From positions 1 through 34,659 of the forward strand of contig JAOULO010000038.1 of the NCBI GenBank assembly GCA_029881995.1: a stretch of 34,659 nt of DNA, in the 5' to 3' direction. Origin of the DNA: Gammaproteobacteria bacterium. GTDB taxonomy: Bacteria > Pseudomonadota > Gammaproteobacteria > UBA6429 > Thiohalophilaceae. The notes beneath the pieces are model-generated. The model did no database searches. It saw only the letters and a list, made by a program, of their open reading frames with translations, and was not told the origin of the DNA. Every line of letters begins with the position of its first letter. Within the stretch, counting starts at the first letter, position 1. This document shows positions 28,421 through 34,659 of the stretch, one piece after another. The position numbers and the translations under genes are program-made.

Positions 28421-28447
28421 TAAAGCTCTTATAAGTGCAGACGATAA
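28421..28447 (+). promoter_or_regulatory. Predicted sigma28 (FliA) promoter for the chemosensory operon
   Basis: The -35 element TAAAGCTC (28421-28428) is followed by exactly 11 bases and the -10 element GACGATAA (28440-28447), which differs from GCCGATAA at a single base. The -35 keeps TAAAG. It lies about 56 bases before the STAS start. Its -10 resembles that of fliC (GACGCTAG). It would place STAS, cheY, cheA, cheW, parA and the multi-globin gene in the late flagellar class. Confidence 0.75.
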
Positions 28448-28503
28448 GACTATTACGTGTAGAGCGACTACACGGTTTTGCATTGGTAATTAAGGAAGTA
28501 CTT

Positions 28504-28821
28504 ATGGGCCTGTTTTCGAAATCAGACAAAGGCAATGGTGGAGTTACTCAGGTGGACTGTGGTGACATTCTGGATATATCCAGAGTGGGTGAATTTCATT
28601 CACAGCTTACAGCAGCCTTGGGTAAAGGTGGTGAAATTGTAATAGATGCAGCCGAACTAGGTCGTATTGATGCTGCTGCTTTACAACTTTTAACGGCCTT
28701 TTTTCAGGATGCCGCTGCGAGAAAAGTTACCGCAAAATGGAATACACCCAGTGATGCACTAATTCGTTCAGCTGGATTACTTGGTTTAAGTACTGAACTG
28801 GGATTACCAGATAGAAATTAA
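28504..28821 (+). CDS. STAS-domain protein of the chemosensory operon
   Basis: Small single-domain STAS protein of 105 residues (anti-sigma-factor-antagonist fold). The start is ATG at 28504, preceded by AAGGA. A longer frame back to 28435 overlaps the sigma28 promoter and is not used. The core reads DAAELGRIDAAALQLLTAFF. In many STAS proteins a Ser or Thr at this turn is phosphorylated; here the residues after the Asp are Ala-Ala-Ala, so regulation by phosphorylation at that site is unlikely. STAS genes are known in some cheY/cheA clusters, where their function is poorly known. It may act as a scaffold or partner of CheA or CheW. Confidence 0.82.
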   Translation: MGLFSKSDKGNGGVTQVDCGDILDISRVGEFHSQLTAALGKGGEIVIDAAELGRIDAAALQLLTAFFQDAAARKVTAKWNTPSDALIRSAGLLGLSTELGLPDRN

Positions 28822-28849
28822 CAATAGTAATTAATATGAGGTGGATAGT

Positions 28850-29209
28850 ATGGCAACAATACTAGCAGTCGATGACTCTGCTTCCATGCGACAGATGGTG
28901 ACCTTTACGCTAAAAGGTGCTGGGCATGATGTCGTTGAAGCCTGTGATGGAAAAGAAGCGCTGGATAAAGCTAAGGGACAACAATTTGATCTGGTGATTT
29001 CTGATGTGAATATGCCAGTTATGGATGGAATAACACTGATTAAAGAACTCAGAGCCTTATCAGAATATAAATTTACACCACTTTTAATGTTAACCACAGA
29101 AAGTGGAGATGATAAAAAAGCACAAGGTAAAACAGCCGGAGCTACTGGTTGGATTGTGAAGCCTTTTAATCCTGATCAGTTGTTAGCCACAATAAAAAAA
29201 GTATTGTAA
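28850..29209 (+). CDS. cheY: CheY-type response regulator
   Basis: Single-domain receiver of 119 residues. The start is ATG at 28850, with AGGTGG 5 bases upstream. The acidic pocket is Asp8/Asp9, the phospho-acceptor Asp52 lies in VISDVNMPVMDG, the switch Thr is at 82-83 (MLTTES) and Lys104 lies in IVKPF. It is the expected phosphate acceptor of the neighbouring CheA. It may be the motor-binding CheY or an operon-specific one; this cannot be decided from sequence. No cheZ phosphatase gene is present in the window. Confidence 0.93.
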   Translation: MATILAVDDSASMRQMVTFTLKGAGHDVVEACDGKEALDKAKGQQFDLVISDVNMPVMDGITLIKELRALSEYKFTPLLMLTTESGDDKKAQGKTAGATGWIVKPFNPDQLLATIKKVL

Positions 29210-29221
29210 TCGAGGAATCCA

Positions 29222-31837
29222 ATGTCTATTGATATGACCCAATTTCTCGTAACTTTCTATGAAGAAAGTTTTGAAGGCCTGGAGATTATGGAATCCGAGC
29301 TTCTGAATCTTGATGTGGGAGCAGCAGATGCGGAAACAATCAATACTATTTTTCGGGCTGCTCATTCAATTAAGGGTGGAAGTGGGACCTTTGGGTTAAA
29401 TGCTGTTGCCTCATTTACCCATGTGATGGAAACCCTGCTGGATGAAATGCGTGATGGTAAGCGTGATGTTACCCAGGAAGGAGTTGAGATATTACTCTCA
29501 TCTGTTGATGTGCTTCGAGAAATGTTGCAATCACTTCGTGATGACTTACCACTAAATCATGATGCTATTTCTGTAGCGCAGGAGCAGCTTGATAATTTAT
29601 TAAATGGTTCCGCAAATAATGAAAGAGAACAGGTAAATACCGTAACTGATTCATATGAACAAGGAACAGGTAGTAATATATCAGAAACCGGTTGCTGGAA
29701 GATTTACTTTAATCCAAACCGCGATATGTATAAGACAGGGAATGATGCAGTCAGGATTATCAGGGAGCTGGAAGAATTGGGTGAAATTGAGGTGCGTGTT
29801 GACACTTCTTCATTGCCAGGCCTTGACGATATAGAGTCGGAAGACAGTTATTTGTCATGGGAAATAATTCTTAAATCAGATACGTCTGAGACAGATATAA
29901 GAGAAGTATTTGCATGGGTAGAAGATGAATGTGATTTAATTATTTCTCCGTACAGTGGGGATGTTGGGGATACTAAAAAATCTTCAGAAAATAAGCCAGA
30001 ATTAAATGTAGCGGTTCTGGAAAAGAGTTTTGATGCACTAGCACCACAGGCTGAAGCATTAGCGGCCCGTTTTTATGAGTCGTTATTTAGTAATCATCCT
30101 GAAGTAAAACCCCTCTTTAAAAATACTACACCAGAGAAACAGCAGGCTAAACTTCTCGCAGCATTAAAACTTGTTGTGGGTAGTTTAAAAAACCCAGAAG
30201 CCCTGGTTAAGTCGTTAACAGAAATGGGAGCCAGGCACCAGGCTTATGGCGCTGTTGCTGAGCACTATGATGTTGTAGCAAGTACATTAATCTCTACTAT
30301 GAAGGAATTGGCAGGTGATTTATGGACATCTGAAGTAAATACAGCATGGCAGGATGCATTAGGTATTATTGCAGGTATTATGCTTGATGCTTACCAACCT
30401 GTAGTGGCATCAGGCCAGCAAAGCCAGTCAACCACACCCAAGGCAAGTACACCGACAAAACAACCGGCAAATACCAATAAGCCAGCTACAGAGTCAAGGA
30501 AAGCATCTGGTTCGGGTGAAACATCGATCAGAGTGTCAATCGATAAAGTGGATGAACTTATTAATACCGTAGGTGAGCTGGTAATCACTCAGGCGATGTT
30601 AGGCCAATTCGGGGAACTCGAAGAGCTGGATAATTCACACCTTGATACATTAAGGGATGGCCTGTCTCAGCTGGAAAGAAATACACGAGAATTACAGGAA
30701 TCGGTCATGCGTATACGCATGTTGCCAATCAGTTTCGCTTTTCAACGTTTCCCTAGATTGGTTCATGATCTTAGTAGTCAACTGGGTAAGAAAGTTGAGC
30801 TGAAAATGTCGGGTGAACAAACTGAACTCGATAAGACAGTGATGGAAAAAATTGGTGACCCACTTGTTCATTTGGTCAGAAACTCTATGGATCATGGTAT
30901 TGAATCACCTGAAAAACGAATTGCAGCGGGTAAATCAGAAATGGGGCTGGTGCATCTTGATGCCTATCATCAGGGTGGGAACATTGTGATAGAAATAACA
31001 GATGATGGCGGTGGTTTAAATACTGAGAAAATACTTGCCAAGGCTAGAAGCAGCGGGCTTGTGTCAGCAGATGATAATCTGACAGAAGATCAAGTCCACG
31101 ATCTTATATTCCAGCCTGGTTTCTCCACGGCAGATCAAGTAAGTGATGTGTCAGGTCGTGGCGTTGGAATGGATGTAGTGCGTCGTAATATTCGATCCCT
31201 AGGTGGTACTGTCGATGTAAAATCAAAAGAAGGTGATGGGTCAACATTCAGGATTCGATTGCCACTAACTCTGGCTATCCTTGATGGTCAGTTAATTCGA
31301 GTTGGTACAGAAATTTACATTATACCTCTGGTATCAATTATTGAGTCCGTCCAGGTTCATAAAGATAAAGTAAATGTAATTAGTGGACGTGGTGAAGTGT
31401 ATAAATTGCGTGATGACTACATACCTATCGTTAGACTGTATCATGCATTTGGCCTCACTGCAGACTCGACTGTGTTAGACAAGGGTTTGCTTGTTGTAGT
31501 TGAGGCGGAAGGTCATAAAGTAGCATTGTTTGTTGATGAGTTGCTTGCTCAGCAGCAGGTGGTAATTAAAAGTCTTGAAACAAATTATAAAAAAGTAGAA
31601 GGTCTGTCGGGCGCAACTATTCTTGGGGATGGAACAGTTGCGCTTATTTTAGATGTTGTAGGGCTGTATGAATTAAGTAAGAAAGTGACAACCCATCCTG
31701 GATTAAATTTGTCTTCTTCAGGAAGTAGTGAAGATGGTGACATTGAAGAGATAGAGGTCGAAGAGGGTAAGTTAGATATTCAGGCCACCAATGAGTCCAG
31801 TTCGAATGAGGATAGTGGTGGTGAGGCAGTGGCCTAA
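29222..31837 (+). CDS. cheA: CheA histidine kinase with an internal globin domain
   Basis: Chemotaxis kinase of 871 residues, longer than the typical 650-750. Domains in order: P1/Hpt (1-105) with phospho-acceptor His48 in AAHSIKGGSGTF; an acidic linker; a P2-like domain (158-242, starting CWKIYFNPNRDMYKTGNDA); a globin domain (about 257-391); a Ser/Thr/Pro/Lys linker (392-433); P3 dimerisation from about 434 (SIRVSIDKVDELINTVGELV); P4 ATPase with N box (Asn554, His558), G1 DDGGG (594-598), F box FQPGF (from 630) and G2 GRGVGMD (645-651); P5 CheW-like domain from about 688; and an acidic tail of about 50 residues. All catalytic motifs are intact, so it should be an active kinase. The globin insertion is the odd feature; it keeps Tyr285, Phe299, Gln307 and His339, the expected haem-pocket residues. 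Confidence 0.95.
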   Translation: MSIDMTQFLVTFYEESFEGLEIMESELLNLDVGAADAETINTIFRAAHSIKGGSGTFGLNAVASFTHVMETLLDEMRDGKRDVTQEGVEILLSSVDVLREMLQSLRDDLPLNHDAISVAQEQLDNLLNGSANNEREQVNTVTDSYEQGTGSNISETGCWKIYFNPNRDMYKTGNDAVRIIRELEELGEIEVRVDTSSLPGLDDIESEDSYLSWEIILKSDTSETDIREVFAWVEDECDLIISPYSGDVGDTKKSSENKPELNVAVLEKSFDALAPQAEALAARFYESLFSNHPEVKPLFKNTTPEKQQAKLLAALKLVVGSLKNPEALVKSLTEMGARHQAYGAVAEHYDVVASTLISTMKELAGDLWTSEVNTAWQDALGIIAGIMLDAYQPVVASGQQSQSTTPKASTPTKQPANTNKPATESRKASGSGETSIRVSIDKVDELINTVGELVITQAMLGQFGELEELDNSHLDTLRDGLSQLERNTRELQESVMRIRMLPISFAFQRFPRLVHDLSSQLGKKVELKMSGEQTELDKTVMEKIGDPLVHLVRNSMDHGIESPEKRIAAGKSEMGLVHLDAYHQGGNIVIEITDDGGGLNTEKILAKARSSGLVSADDNLTEDQVHDLIFQPGFSTADQVSDVSGRGVGMDVVRRNIRSLGGTVDVKSKEGDGSTFRIRLPLTLAILDGQLIRVGTEIYIIPLVSIIESVQVHKDKVNVISGRGEVYKLRDDYIPIVRLYHAFGLTADSTVLDKGLLVVVEAEGHKVALFVDELLAQQQVVIKSLETNYKKVEGLSGATILGDGTVALILDVVGLYELSKKVTTHPGLNLSSSGSSEDGDIEEIEVEEGKLDIQATNESSSNEDSGGEAVA
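29990..30394 (+). other. Globin domain encoded within cheA
   Basis: Residues about 257-391 of CheA form a complete globin. The pattern FYESLF (Tyr B10), PLF (Phe CD1), a Gln at E7 (residue 307) and RHQAYG (proximal His339) parallels Vitreoscilla haemoglobin as I remember it. The spacing from B10 to CD1 is identical (14 residues), and the distance from CD1 to F8 is two residues shorter. The closing AWQDALGIIAGIMLDAY matches the H-helix pattern. It aligns without gaps to the three tandem globins downstream (33227-34558). Haem binding is inferred from the residues. Confidence 0.9.
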
Positions 31838-31849
31838 GGAGCTGTAAAT

Positions 31850-32374
31850 ATGAACGATACTACACAAAATGAACATAGTATTGATTTGATGTCTGTGGGT
31901 AACGATGGAAATCAGTTTTTAACATTTATGTTGGCTGGTGAGGAATACGGAGTTGATATTCTTCGAGTTCAGGAAATTAAAGGTTGGGACACTGTTACGA
32001 AAATACCTAACACACCTGAATATATTCGTGGTGTTATTAATTTGCGTGGCACGATTGTTCCAATTATAGATTTGCGACTTCGTTTTAATCTTGAGCAACT
32101 TGATTATGGTGTTACAACTGTTGTTATTGTCGTGAAAGTAGTTAGTGATGGTGAGAAGGAACGAACTATGGGTATTGTTGTTGATGCGGTATCTGACGTT
32201 TATAACATTTCAAGTGATGACTTTAAAGAAGCGCCTGATTTTGGTACTGCGGTTGATACTGATTATGTAAAAGGGTTGTCTACAGTAAATGAAAAAATGG
32301 TTATTTTGCTGGATATCGATCACATGTGTAATTCTGCCGAATTAAAAGTAATAGATTCTATAGCTGAGTCATAG
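31850..32374 (+). CDS. cheW: CheW, chemosensory coupling protein
   Basis: Adapter linking receptors to CheA P5. It has 174 residues. Typical features: FLTFMLAGEEYGVDILRVQE, PNTPEYIRGVINLRGTIVP, IIDLRLRF, and VVDAVSDVYNI. The N-terminal 20 residues are polar. A good ribosome site (AAGGAG) lies before the ATG. It starts 12 bases after cheA and ends 11 bases before the ParA-like gene. Confidence 0.95.
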   Translation: MNDTTQNEHSIDLMSVGNDGNQFLTFMLAGEEYGVDILRVQEIKGWDTVTKIPNTPEYIRGVINLRGTIVPIIDLRLRFNLEQLDYGVTTVVIVVKVVSDGEKERTMGIVVDAVSDVYNISSDDFKEAPDFGTAVDTDYVKGLSTVNEKMVILLDIDHMCNSAELKVIDSIAES

Positions 32375-32385
32375 AGAATATATTA

Positions 32386-33168
32386 ATGAGAGTCATAGCG
32401 ATAATAAATCAAAAAGGTGGTGTTGGTAAGACTACCACCACAATGAATCTTGCTCATGCACTGGCACGCGATGGATATCGTGTACTTGCTATTGATCTTG
32501 ATCCACAGGCTAATTTGTCAGTCGGACTTGGTGTGACGAAAAAACCACAAATGGGTGTGGCAGATATACTAATAAACGATGCTTCACTATTTGATATGAC
32601 AGAGGAAGTTCGCGATAACCTGGAATTACTACCAGCTGGTGATAAATTAGGTGAGTTTGAGTACATACGTAGCAAAGGTAGTCAAAGAGGTTTTCTTTTA
32701 CAGTATTCGATCAGGGAAAGTAAGGCAGAAAAGGATTTCATATTAATAGACTGCCCACCAACTTCGGGTATATTGGGAATGAATGCTCTATTGGCAGCGA
32801 ATGAAGTGATTATACCTGTTGCCGGTGATTACTATTCGCTACAGGGCTTATCTCGACAAATGCAAATATTTGATTATGTCGAAAATACTCTCAATCGACA
32901 CACAAAGAAATGGCTGGTTCTAACTAGATATAATGATAGACGCAAACTTGCCAGAAAGGTCAGAGATAGTGTTGTTCACTATTTCCCAAACAGAGTATTA
33001 CAAACGCCTATTCGTGAAACTGTTGCTTTGGCTGAGAGTCCATCATATGGGAAAACAATTTTCGATTATCAAGCCAAAAATCGTGGTGCAACGGATTATC
33101 AGCAACTAGCATGGGATGTTGTTGAGGGAAGGGTAGAAACCCAGGGAGAGGAACTTGGCGAATGGTAG
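32386..33168 (+). CDS. ParA/Soj-type ATPase of the chemosensory operon
   Basis: P-loop ATPase of 260 residues. The deviant Walker A is INQKGGVGKTTTT, with the signature Lys, Walker A' is LAIDLDPQANLS, and Walker B is FILIDCPP. This is the ParA/Soj type. In other bacteria, such ATPases in chemotaxis operons (ParC in Vibrio, PpfA in Rhodobacter) place chemosensory arrays in the cell; that role is inferred here from the position after cheW. It is not FleN/FlhG, since it lacks the flhF neighbour and is closer to Soj in the P-loop region. Its last 14 bases overlap the start of the multi-globin gene. Confidence 0.88.
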   Translation: MRVIAIINQKGGVGKTTTTMNLAHALARDGYRVLAIDLDPQANLSVGLGVTKKPQMGVADILINDASLFDMTEEVRDNLELLPAGDKLGEFEYIRSKGSQRGFLLQYSIRESKAEKDFILIDCPPTSGILGMNALLAANEVIIPVAGDYYSLQGLSRQMQIFDYVENTLNRHTKKWLVLTRYNDRRKLARKVRDSVVHYFPNRVLQTPIRETVALAESPSYGKTIFDYQAKNRGATDYQQLAWDVVEGRVETQGEELGEW

Positions 33169-34659
33169 TGATAGCCTGGGTTTTGATCCCCTGGCCTGGA
33201 TGAAGGAAGGCGCCGATCCGGCCACTCACCCGCTAGGACTGGATGTTAATCTATTAACAGCCAGTTTTGAAGCTGTTACGCCAAAGGCGGAGGAACTGGT
33301 TGCAAGGTTCTATGAAGAGCTGTTTAACCGTTATCCTGATGTAGTACCACTATTCTCCAATACCACACCAGAAAAACAACAGCAAAAACTGTTAGCTGCA
33401 CTCAAGCTTGTTATTAATAATCTTAATAATATCGATGTTTTATCGAATACCTTGACTGAATTAGGCGCCAGACACCAGGGATATGGTGCAGAGGCTGGCC
33501 ATTATGGAGCGGTAGCTTCAACCCTGCTTGACGTGATGCAAGAAATAGCTGGTGATGCATGGACTGATGATATTAACAAGGCATGGAGTCACGCGCTTGA
33601 AGTCATTGCGAAAGTGATGCTTGATGCTTATACAGATGCTGGGCCTGATTCAAATGTTTCACTACAAACAGAGTCAGATAGCACCGATCAAGATCATCCT
33701 CTAGGTTTAAATATATCAGCTCTTCGAACTAGCTTTGATTTGCTGGCACCCAATGGTGATGAATTGGTGGCCAGATTTTATAAAACACTGTTTGAACGAT
33801 ATCCAGGGGTCAAACCATTATTTTCTAATACAACACCTACTGAGCAGAAACGTAAACTACTGGCAGCATTAACACTGTTGGTTAGAAATCTGGATAATGT
33901 TGATATGCTGGCCAAAGTTCTAACAGAGTTAGGTGCCAGACATCAACAGTATGGTGCAGAACCCGCACATTATGATGCAGTTGCTTCAGTTTTGATCGAT
34001 GTTATGAAAGATATGGCCGGTGATGCATGGAATAGCGAGATTGAACAAGCCTGGACTCATGCATTATCAGTTATTGCCAAAGTGATGCTTGATGCCTATG
34101 GTGAAGTAAACGAAGAAGTTAAAGCTATAGAAGAAGTTGAAACTATAGAAGAACACCCACTAGGACTTAATGTCAATGCCTTAACAAATAGCTTTAATCT
34201 GCTGGCTCCTCGTGGAGAGGAACTGGTTGCTAAATTCTATCAACAACTCTTTGAAAAATATCCGACTGTTAAACCATTATTTGTAAATACTACACCTAAA
34301 GAACAGAAAAAGAAATTACTGGCCGCGTTACAGCTTGTAATCAATAATCTGAATAATGTTGATGTACTTTCAAAGGCCTTGACTGAACTTGGCCAGCGTC
34401 ATCAGGGTTATGGTGCTGAACCTGCGCACTATGATGCAGTTTCAACCACTTTGATTGGTGTGATGCGTGACATGGCTGAGGAGGCATGGACCATGGAAAT
34501 GCAAAGTGCCTGGCAGCAGGCACTGGAAGTTATTTCTACTGTTATGCTAGATGCTTACAAGGAAGTGGATCCCATTGATACACCTGAAGGTCATCCACTT
34601 GGTCTAAACGTACCAGTACTGGAAAAGAGCTTCAATGCCCTGGCTCCCAGAGCAAATGA
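33155..34659 (+). CDS. Tandem multi-globin protein, partial (runs off right edge)
   Basis: Open frame of 501 codons with no stop before the window end. The preferred start is TTG at 33155, preceded by GGGAGAGG; an in-frame stop at 33134 bounds it upstream, and ATG at 33200 is the alternative but has no ribosome site. The N-terminus (residues 1-24) carries GFDPLAWMKEG, a short segment of unknown use. Three full globins follow at residues 25-159, 181-315 and 334-468, each 135 residues and starting HPLGL, and a fourth starts at residue 480. Each complete copy keeps Tyr B10, Phe CD1, Gln E7 and the proximal His (107, 263, 416). Linkers shrink from 21 to 18 to 11 residues and are acidic or polar. 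No membrane segment or signal peptide is seen, so it should be cytoplasmic. The missing C-terminus could hold more globins, a receptor signalling domain or a CheW-like domain. The function is unknown; oxygen or NO sensing, or ligand buffering, are options. Confidence 0.9.
   Translation, partial: MANGSDSLGFDPLAWMKEGADPATHPLGLDVNLLTASFEAVTPKAEELVARFYEELFNRYPDVVPLFSNTTPEKQQQKLLAALKLVINNLNNIDVLSNTLTELGARHQGYGAEAGHYGAVASTLLDVMQEIAGDAWTDDINKAWSHALEVIAKVMLDAYTDAGPDSNVSLQTESDSTDQDHPLGLNISALRTSFDLLAPNGDELVARFYKTLFERYPGVKPLFSNTTPTEQKRKLLAALTLLVRNLDNVDMLAKVLTELGARHQQYGAEPAHYDAVASVLIDVMKDMAGDAWNSEIEQAWTHALSVIAKVMLDAYGEVNEEVKAIEEVETIEEHPLGLNVNALTNSFNLLAPRGEELVAKFYQQLFEKYPTVKPLFVNTTPKEQKKKLLAALQLVINNLNNVDVLSKALTELGQRHQGYGAEPAHYDAVSTTLIGVMRDMAEEAWTMEMQSAWQQALEVISTVMLDAYKEVDPIDTPEGHPLGLNVPVLEKSFNALAPRAN
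33227..33631 (+). repeat. Globin repeat 1
   Basis: It is 135 codons from HPLGLDV to VMLDAY. It carries RFYEELF (B10 Tyr), PLFSNTTPEK (CD1 Phe), Gln at domain position 51 and ARHQGYG (proximal His). Hand count gives about 88 of 135 residues identical to repeat 3, with no gaps. Confidence 0.9.
33695..34099 (+). repeat. Globin repeat 2
   Basis: It is 135 codons from HPLGLNI to VMLDAY. It keeps the same pocket residues (RFYKTLF, PLFSNTTPTE, Gln51, ARHQQYG). It is separated from repeat 1 by a 63-base polar, Ser/Asp-rich linker. Confidence 0.9.
34154..34558 (+). repeat. Globin repeat 3
   Basis: It is 135 codons from HPLGLNV to VMLDAY. It keeps KFYQQLF, PLFVNTTPKE, Gln51 and QRHQGYG. The preceding 54-base linker encodes an acidic stretch in which the unit EEV-(K/E)-(A/T)-IEE is partly repeated. 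Confidence 0.9.
34592..34659 (+). repeat. Globin repeat 4, cut by window edge
   Basis: Only the first 22 residues are visible: HPLGLNVPVLEKSFNALAPR and two more. The segment VLEKSFNALAP nearly equals the CheA globin start (VLEKSFDALAP) and differs from repeats 1-3 (for example LLTASFEAVTP). Confidence 0.85.

Follow-up and report, generated by a model that had tools for sequence, protein, structure and literature searches.

A chemoreceptor gene with tandem globin domains in a gammaproteobacterial chemosensory locus, and related globins on CheA, CheW and STAS proteins

Sensing in chemoreceptor systems is usually confined to the receptor. Here, we describe a chemosensory locus in which one sensor domain, a globin, is multiplied on the receptor and, in loci of the same type, recurs on the kinase, the coupling protein and an accessory protein. 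The receptor gene lies at the right-hand end of contig JAOULO010000038.1 (C84), whose full 34,659 nucleotides are the stretch of DNA analysed here (the window), from a gammaproteobacterial metagenome-assembled genome (GCA_029881995.1, G000). It encodes tandem F-type globins, followed on a second contig of the same genome (C74) by four PAS domains, a HAMP domain and the signalling domain of a methyl-accepting chemotaxis protein (MCP). We consider it probable that the product is a soluble, Aer2-like receptor that uses multiple haems to sense O2, or another diatomic gas, within the cell. The arrangement suggests that unusually much is invested in the sensing of oxygen or a similar gas. It also points to a signalling role for globins of the F family, one that is generally assigned to sensor-family globins.

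The receptor gene and its continuation

A first-pass annotation, made from the window alone, had described a polyglobin gene within a che operon. The gene is confirmed, and we identify it as that of a chemoreceptor. Its features in the window are listed here, with G001 and G002 denoting genomes of the same family.

33155..34659, + strand: polyglobin chemoreceptor gene, 5' part; TTG start, supported by relatives; runs off the contig edge, with its stop at C74:4602
33227..33631, + strand: globin domain 1; clusters with G002 domain 1 and with the N-terminal globin of G001
33695..34099, + strand: globin domain 2; orthologue of G002 domain 2
34154..34558, + strand: globin domain 3; sister to the two domain 2 copies, G002 having no partner of its own for it
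34592..34659, + strand: fourth globin domain, start only (first 22 residues)

Three complete globins and the beginning of a fourth had been read from the letters, and Pfam Globin matches the frame in three stretches (E = 1.2e-54). All three complete units run for 135 codons from HPLGL to DAY, as the annotation had said. Their spacings are unequal (156, 153 and 146 codons), so the constant length belongs to the domain and not to a repeat period. The units are 64–68% identical to one another and are followed by acidic linkers of 21, 18 and 11 residues, which are probably flexible. The ATG noted as missing at the expected start is indeed absent, and the frame opens with TTG at 33155. The receptors of three relatives (G002, G010 and G022) begin M-x(6)-LGFDPLAWM with an ATG at the corresponding codon; we therefore take this TTG to be the homologous start, and a pseudogene reading of the missing ATG was rejected. 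Likewise, the frame has no stop inside the window because the window is the entire contig and ends at its edge.

Extension to the right with a Pfam search, which the annotation had proposed, found that the frame continues and carries an MCP signalling domain. The gene resumes at G000:C74:1-4602 and stops there. The 1,533 residues of this open frame include four further complete globins, followed by four PAS domains, HAMP and MCPsignal. After it come cheR, cheD, cheB and a frame that was named fliA from its sequence. The last 119 bases of C84 are identical to C74:463-581, and the first 127 bases of C74 recur exactly at C74:877; exact repeats of this kind at contig ends are typical of an assembly that broke off at a repeat.

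Seven complete receptor globins were sequenced in G000, with pairwise identities of 53–76%. Window domain 3 and the first C74 domain both precede one and the same beginning of a fourth domain, so that no fewer than eight globins are needed if the assembly represents one strain; for eight, the joined contigs give 2,134 codons including the stop, in frame. From this join the G000 receptor likely holds eight globins; should the assembly mix strains, the smallest join has six globins and 1,842 codons. We give hardly any credence to a wrong copy number through assembly artefact or strain mixture. The 119- and 127-base repeats and a contamination estimate of 4.16% for the assembly would fit it, but the seven complete domains are distinct, and a genome of the same genus (G002) has a contiguous array with no exact repeat longer than 17 bases. 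The G002 locus lies on one contig in the order fliI, fliK, STAS, cheY, cheA with globin, cheW, parA, receptor, cheR, cheD, cheB, fliA, and its receptor of 1,839 residues has six globins and four haem-PAS motifs. The longest exact internal repeat is 17 bases in this array and 20 bases in the three-globin array of G010, which makes repeat collapse or expansion an unlikely maker of the arrays. Of the artefact of collapsed repeats that the annotation had feared, one part thus falls away, the array being real and contiguous in G002 and G010, and the other part stands, as the exact count in G000 still hangs on the repeat at which its assembly broke.

Beyond its globins, the receptor resembles Aer2. 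One of its PAS domains matches, by phmmer, the solved PAS domains 6ceq (1.3e-25), from a Vibrio Aer2, 3vol (1.3e-22) and 4hi4 (3.6e-21), the latter two labelled Aer2. Four FHxNPxH motifs are present in each of the G000 and G002 receptors; in G000 the motif reads FHSNPQH in the first PAS and FHKNPAH in the other three. By a count along the phmmer alignment from the construct limits, the motif histidine is presumably H234 of Aer2. In Pseudomonas aeruginosa Aer2, the PAS domain coordinates haem b by H234 and mediates responses to O2 in Escherichia coli (PMC13401364). The highest 19-residue hydropathy of the G000 receptor is 1.43 in a simple hydropathy scan, which implies that it has no membrane span, a property shared with Aer2-like receptors of the P. 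aeruginosa and Shewanella oneidensis type. The protein ends in EWSEF, and all 18 receptor C-termini examined, a chosen sample, end in [ED]W[SAED]EF. EWSEF fits the published Aer2 tether motif x-[HFYW]-x2-[HFYW] (PMC7184735), a pentapeptide of the CheR/CheB-docking type.

The globin domain, its haem pocket and its history

The globins had been assigned to the Vitreoscilla/flavohaemoglobin type and not to the sensor type, and profile scores agree: PF00042 reaches 184 bits and Protoglobin (PF11563) 45 bits. A Protoglobin/HemAT identity was rejected on this difference. The nearest solved chains by sequence are 3wfw (HGbRL), 3s1i (Hell's Gate globin I) and 3ubc, then 1vhb, presumably the Vitreoscilla globin. 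An AlphaFold model of globin 1, built from 20 rows, has a predicted local distance difference test score (pLDDT) of 93.7; its best PDB match is again 3s1i (Z 21.3, root-mean-square deviation 1.7, 131 residues), which leads the next structure by nearly two Z units.

The haem pocket, which the annotation had described as kept, is invariant in all complete copies at Tyr29 (B10), Phe43 (CD1), Gln51 (E7) and His83 (F8), the helix positions being assigned by alignment with HGbRL. The same four residues are invariant across the seven complete receptor copies and the CheA copy of G000. Across genomes, we compared 90 domains, a set without fragments shorter than about 110 residues and without the G158 globin described below. 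The four residues are kept in 60 of the 61 receptor domains and in every CheA (7/7), CheW-linked (5/5) and STAS-type (5/5) globin protein. From these residues the globins appear able to bind haem. The lysine aligned with Lys52 of HGbRL, its haem ligand at E10 (PMC4476040), is kept in 59 of the 61 receptor domains, and a Lys-His closed state that opens on ligand binding would be a testable idea.

Two receptor globins depart from this pattern. That of G242 (L123 6817-9834) has F8 His replaced by Tyr and CD1 Phe by Leu, the only loss among the 61 receptor domains and among the 90 overall; on its sequence it is a probable haem-less descendant. In G158, the globin stretch (L108 8563-8952; G158:C6:448562-448951) contains one TGA and one TAG, and the receptor frame, as read, starts past most of it, through decay or sequence error.

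A Pfam scan found no FAD/NAD reductase domain in either part of the receptor gene, as a flavohaemoglobin would have. This bears on the view that the globins are a tethered O2 or NO chemistry module (an O2 buffer, an NO dioxygenase or a haem store) and that only the PAS haems sense, which we regard as unlikely. In its favour, the domains belong to the family that includes flavohaemoglobins and Vitreoscilla-type globins, a long row of copies suits storage better than switching, and the eight PF00042 matches of the genome fall in the receptor (seven) and in CheA (one), so that the array would be its only globin of this kind. No reductase is attached, however, and several lineages carry the module on CheA and CheW, which form the core of signalling and where an enzyme would have no need to be.

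In a tree of the 90 domains (support as approximate likelihood-ratio test (aLRT)/bootstrap; M1 to M6 are the G002 copies), window domain 2 pairs with M2 (94.5/100), and C74 copies 1, 2 and 4 pair with M3 (90.5/100), M4 (85.7/99) and M6 (98/100). Window domain 1, M1 and the N-terminal globin of G001 form one group (87.4/98). C74 copy 3 lies near M5 with weak support, and window domain 3 is extra (94.8/100). Since the copies of G000 and G002 pair off, most of the six-globin array predates their split. The ratio of nonsynonymous to synonymous differences per site (pN/pS) is 0.14–0.26 for the seven array pairs of these two genomes and 0.37 for the CheA globin, with 0.05 for cheY and 0.14 for cheW; as synonymous sites are near saturation, these values hint at purifying selection and no more, and at a weaker selection than that on the neighbouring genes.

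This history makes it very improbable, in our view, that the array arose by neutral tandem duplication with no function beyond that of one globin. Most relatives have one copy, array size varies between close relatives, and the array changes more rapidly than cheY and, in most of its copies, more rapidly than cheW too, all of which a neutral origin would explain. It would also lead one to expect decay, whereas pN/pS stays at 0.14–0.26 per copy despite the near-saturation; and four copies pair one-to-one (bootstrap 99–100), with a fifth grouping at 98.

The rarity of tandem globins, which the annotation had asserted, held up: within the genomes surveyed, all receptors found to carry more than one globin belong to the window's family. 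They are those of G000, G002 and G010, plus G005, which has two distinct globins at two contig ends; the G001 receptor is broken between contigs and gives no count. Receptor globin numbers in the family are thus 1, 3, 6 and about 8. A globin of this kind is present in 20 of the 40 genomes of the order, which is one family (E <= 1e-25). In the class, 50 of the 369 genomes drawn match at E <= 1e-26, including the window's own and some free-standing globins, and each of the 29 receptor frames classified among these matches shows a single globin in the part available; the one-globin form is common in Gammaproteobacteria. At E <= 1e-28, three of the 398 genomes drawn from the phylum match, namely the window's genome and two with free-standing globins, and no receptor globin was found outside the window's own genome; this draw mixes class members with an unspecified number of others, and gives no evidence of confinement to Gammaproteobacteria.

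The globin on CheA, CheW and STAS proteins

The other chemosensory genes at this end of the window are given below, with domains assigned by Pfam and CheA also aligned with globin-free CheA.

28435..28821, + strand: STAS-domain protein; in some relatives a STAS protein of this locus carries the same globin as a fusion
28841..29209, + strand: cheY
29222..31837, + strand: cheA with embedded globin; Hpt, P2-like, globin, P3 (H-kinase_dim), P4 (HATPase_c) and P5 (CheW-like)
29243..29542, + strand: Hpt domain of CheA; His48 in an AAHSIKGGS stretch
29999..30394, + strand: globin inside CheA, aa 260-391; Pfam Globin E 5.3e-14, haem-pocket residues kept
31850..32374, + strand: cheW, without globin; relatives have globin-inserted or globin-tailed CheW
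32386..33168, + strand: parA-like ATPase

The CheA globin, which is absent from the earlier reading, sits between the P2-like domain and P3. His48 of the AAHSIKGGS stretch is the expected phospho-acceptor of CheA. A structure model of the whole protein from three aligned rows was poor (pLDDT 48.7) and was set aside.

Among the family genomes whose CheA could be judged at the insertion place, the globin is present in six (G000, G001, G002, G004, G010 and G022, with G001 and G004 broken at contig ends) and absent from five (G007, G009, G016, G018 and G021). Outside the family, it occurs in one CheA of 18, that of G072, the sole genome of its order; the 18 omit three truncated CheAs, the distant CheA of G026 and some further loci at which no CheA globin was found. 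The insert in the G022 CheA is a 417-base module with 81% DNA identity to the module of that genome's own receptor, and the two globins are sisters at 99.1/100. A single origin of the CheA globins was rejected in an approximately unbiased (AU) test, with p-AU 0.0002 for one clade of all seven rows and 0.003 for the six of the family; the test used 44 rows chosen from the 90, with groups named after the first tree was seen. On the CheA backbone tree three changes are needed, of which well-supported branches force two. They can be read as three separate gains or as a single gain with two losses, and gene conversion may have acted in G022 instead of a fresh insertion.

CheW carries the module in two ways. 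In G140 (L091 8979-9923) and G355 (L121 3035-3979), a globin interrupts CheW, with CheW matches on both sides, and the gene adjoins that of a one-globin receptor. In G010 (L022 5717-7543), a protein of 608 residues has CheW followed by three globins, on a contig different from that of the main che locus. Globin-STAS proteins stand beside parA or the receptor in G021 and G175, where STAS was called by Pfam, and in G051 and G382, where it was called by BLAST to the window's STAS protein; a similar globin protein of 305 residues in G050 (L049) had no STAS match called. The best reading of these sequences is that the globin module has been copied repeatedly onto other parts of its own array.

The G021 protein (L032 6883-7782; about 300 residues) lies between parA and cheR, and the receptor of that genome has no globin match, as if the globin had moved from the receptor to a separate protein. 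Similar globin proteins of about 300 residues lie between parA and cheR in G051 (L047; with STAS) and in G050.

Proposed role and comparison with known systems

In the reading that we favour, of an Aer2-like gas sensor, a receptor of about 2,130 residues would combine eight globins, four Aer2-type haem-PAS domains, HAMP, the MCP hairpin and the CheR/CheB-docking pentapeptide. HAMP would pass on gas binding at the PAS haems to the CheA/CheW baseplate, as happens in Aer2. The globins would add haem sites, giving a wider range, a sharper response or a buffered signal, and their number would set range or avidity; the CheA globin would let the kinase itself feel the same ligand. The genome also carries two ccoN (cbb3 oxidase) genes, which suggest life at low O2 and would fit a microaerobic cell for which O2 position matters.

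Several points weigh against this proposal. The linkers are acidic and probably flexible, so that a mechanical push of the outer globins on HAMP is hard to see. The globins evolve faster than their neighbours, with the pN/pS values given above. Half of the family (20 of 40 genomes) is without a globin of this kind at E <= 1e-25, and one globin suffices for most relatives, with none on the G021 receptor and stops in the globin stretch of G158. Moreover, G000 encodes another CheA together with CheZ, apart from this array, as well as two further CheA-type frames, and the array may therefore not drive the motor. Its output may instead be a stress response, as has been proposed for ancestral F7 systems (PMC7184735), although the receptor cluster lies among flagellar genes. 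The CheA-type frames are on C111 (842 residues, beside CheZ), C15 (753) and C122 (2,098), and up to four chemosensory systems coexist in this genome.

A bolder proposal is that the globin is an exchangeable, haem-gated contact module. The globins on receptor, CheA, CheW and STAS proteins would recognise each other or the same gas, O2 would set array assembly or activity at every layer, and receptor arrays, with up to eight globins, would act as a multivalent docking strip. We hold this as a tentative possibility; if true, it would mean distributed, kinase-level gas sensing in chemotaxis. We think it quite improbable that the array is mainly a spacer, in which repeated globins would determine how high a tall cytoplasmic array stands or how it packs. 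Aer2-like receptors do form tall arrays whose density layers match PAS and HAMP domains (PMC7184735), and the copy number ranges over 1, 3, 6 and about 8 within one family. A spacer would not need the four pocket residues that every complete copy keeps, however, and height leaves the globins in CheA, CheW and STAS proteins unexplained.

Among known systems, the closest are the Aer2-like F7 receptors of P. aeruginosa, Vibrio and Shewanella, which are likewise cytosolic, with haem-PAS, HAMP, an MCP hairpin, a pentapeptide and a che cluster. The present receptors differ in their one to about eight N-terminal globins, their four PAS motifs and the parA-like and flagellar genes around them; as to a possible 36H signalling domain and F7-class CheA, gene order and CheD were observed. 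No word with 'globin' as its first letters occurs in the F7 paper's main text (PMC7184735). HemAT and other globin-coupled sensors also have a globin at the MCP N-terminus and a proposed role in O2 sensing, but theirs is of the sensor (S, protoglobin) lineage (PMC1457004, PMC3287990), whereas ours are F-type, in tandem and accompanied by PAS. Bacterial F globins are described as flavohaemoglobins and single-domain globins, with MCP, kinase and STAS partners placed under the S family (PMC3287990).

Other parallels concern single components. Methylacidiphilum infernorum HGbRL, nearest by sequence, and Hell's Gate globin I, nearest by fold, resemble our globins, and the aligned lysine is kept; HGbRL differs in being a single globin fused to Roadblock/LC7. 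An MCP in a che cluster of Corallococcus coralloides is predicted to have both PAS and globin, the latter from the Bac_globin family and another lineage (PMC6194562). RsbR and other globin-STAS proteins parallel the fusions of our relatives, but Bacillus subtilis RsbR has lost the haem histidine that the che-locus fusions keep (PMC4476040). CheWS of Treponema denticola places a sensor domain on CheW instead of the receptor; there it is a CheR-like S-adenosylmethionine sensor, unlike the globin inside or behind CheW seen here (PMC10653840). In a 2026 review of aerotaxis, the globin receptors named as validated are the HemAT proteins, GCSBh and Atu1027, and the Corallococcus MCP is cited as well (PMC13401364). 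Our literature search, which covered texts without supplements (such as the CheW list of PMC10653840) and few subscription journals, brought up neither a chemoreceptor with globins in tandem nor a CheA or CheW that contains a globin.

The family offers a natural series, with 1, 3, 6 and about 8 receptor globins and CheA with or without one, in which copy number and position can be set against dynamic range; it also lets one ask whether the array core senses directly.

At the other end of the window, a frame at positions 1-876 reads like a second cheR; it lies upstream of flagellar genes and apart from the cheR of C74.

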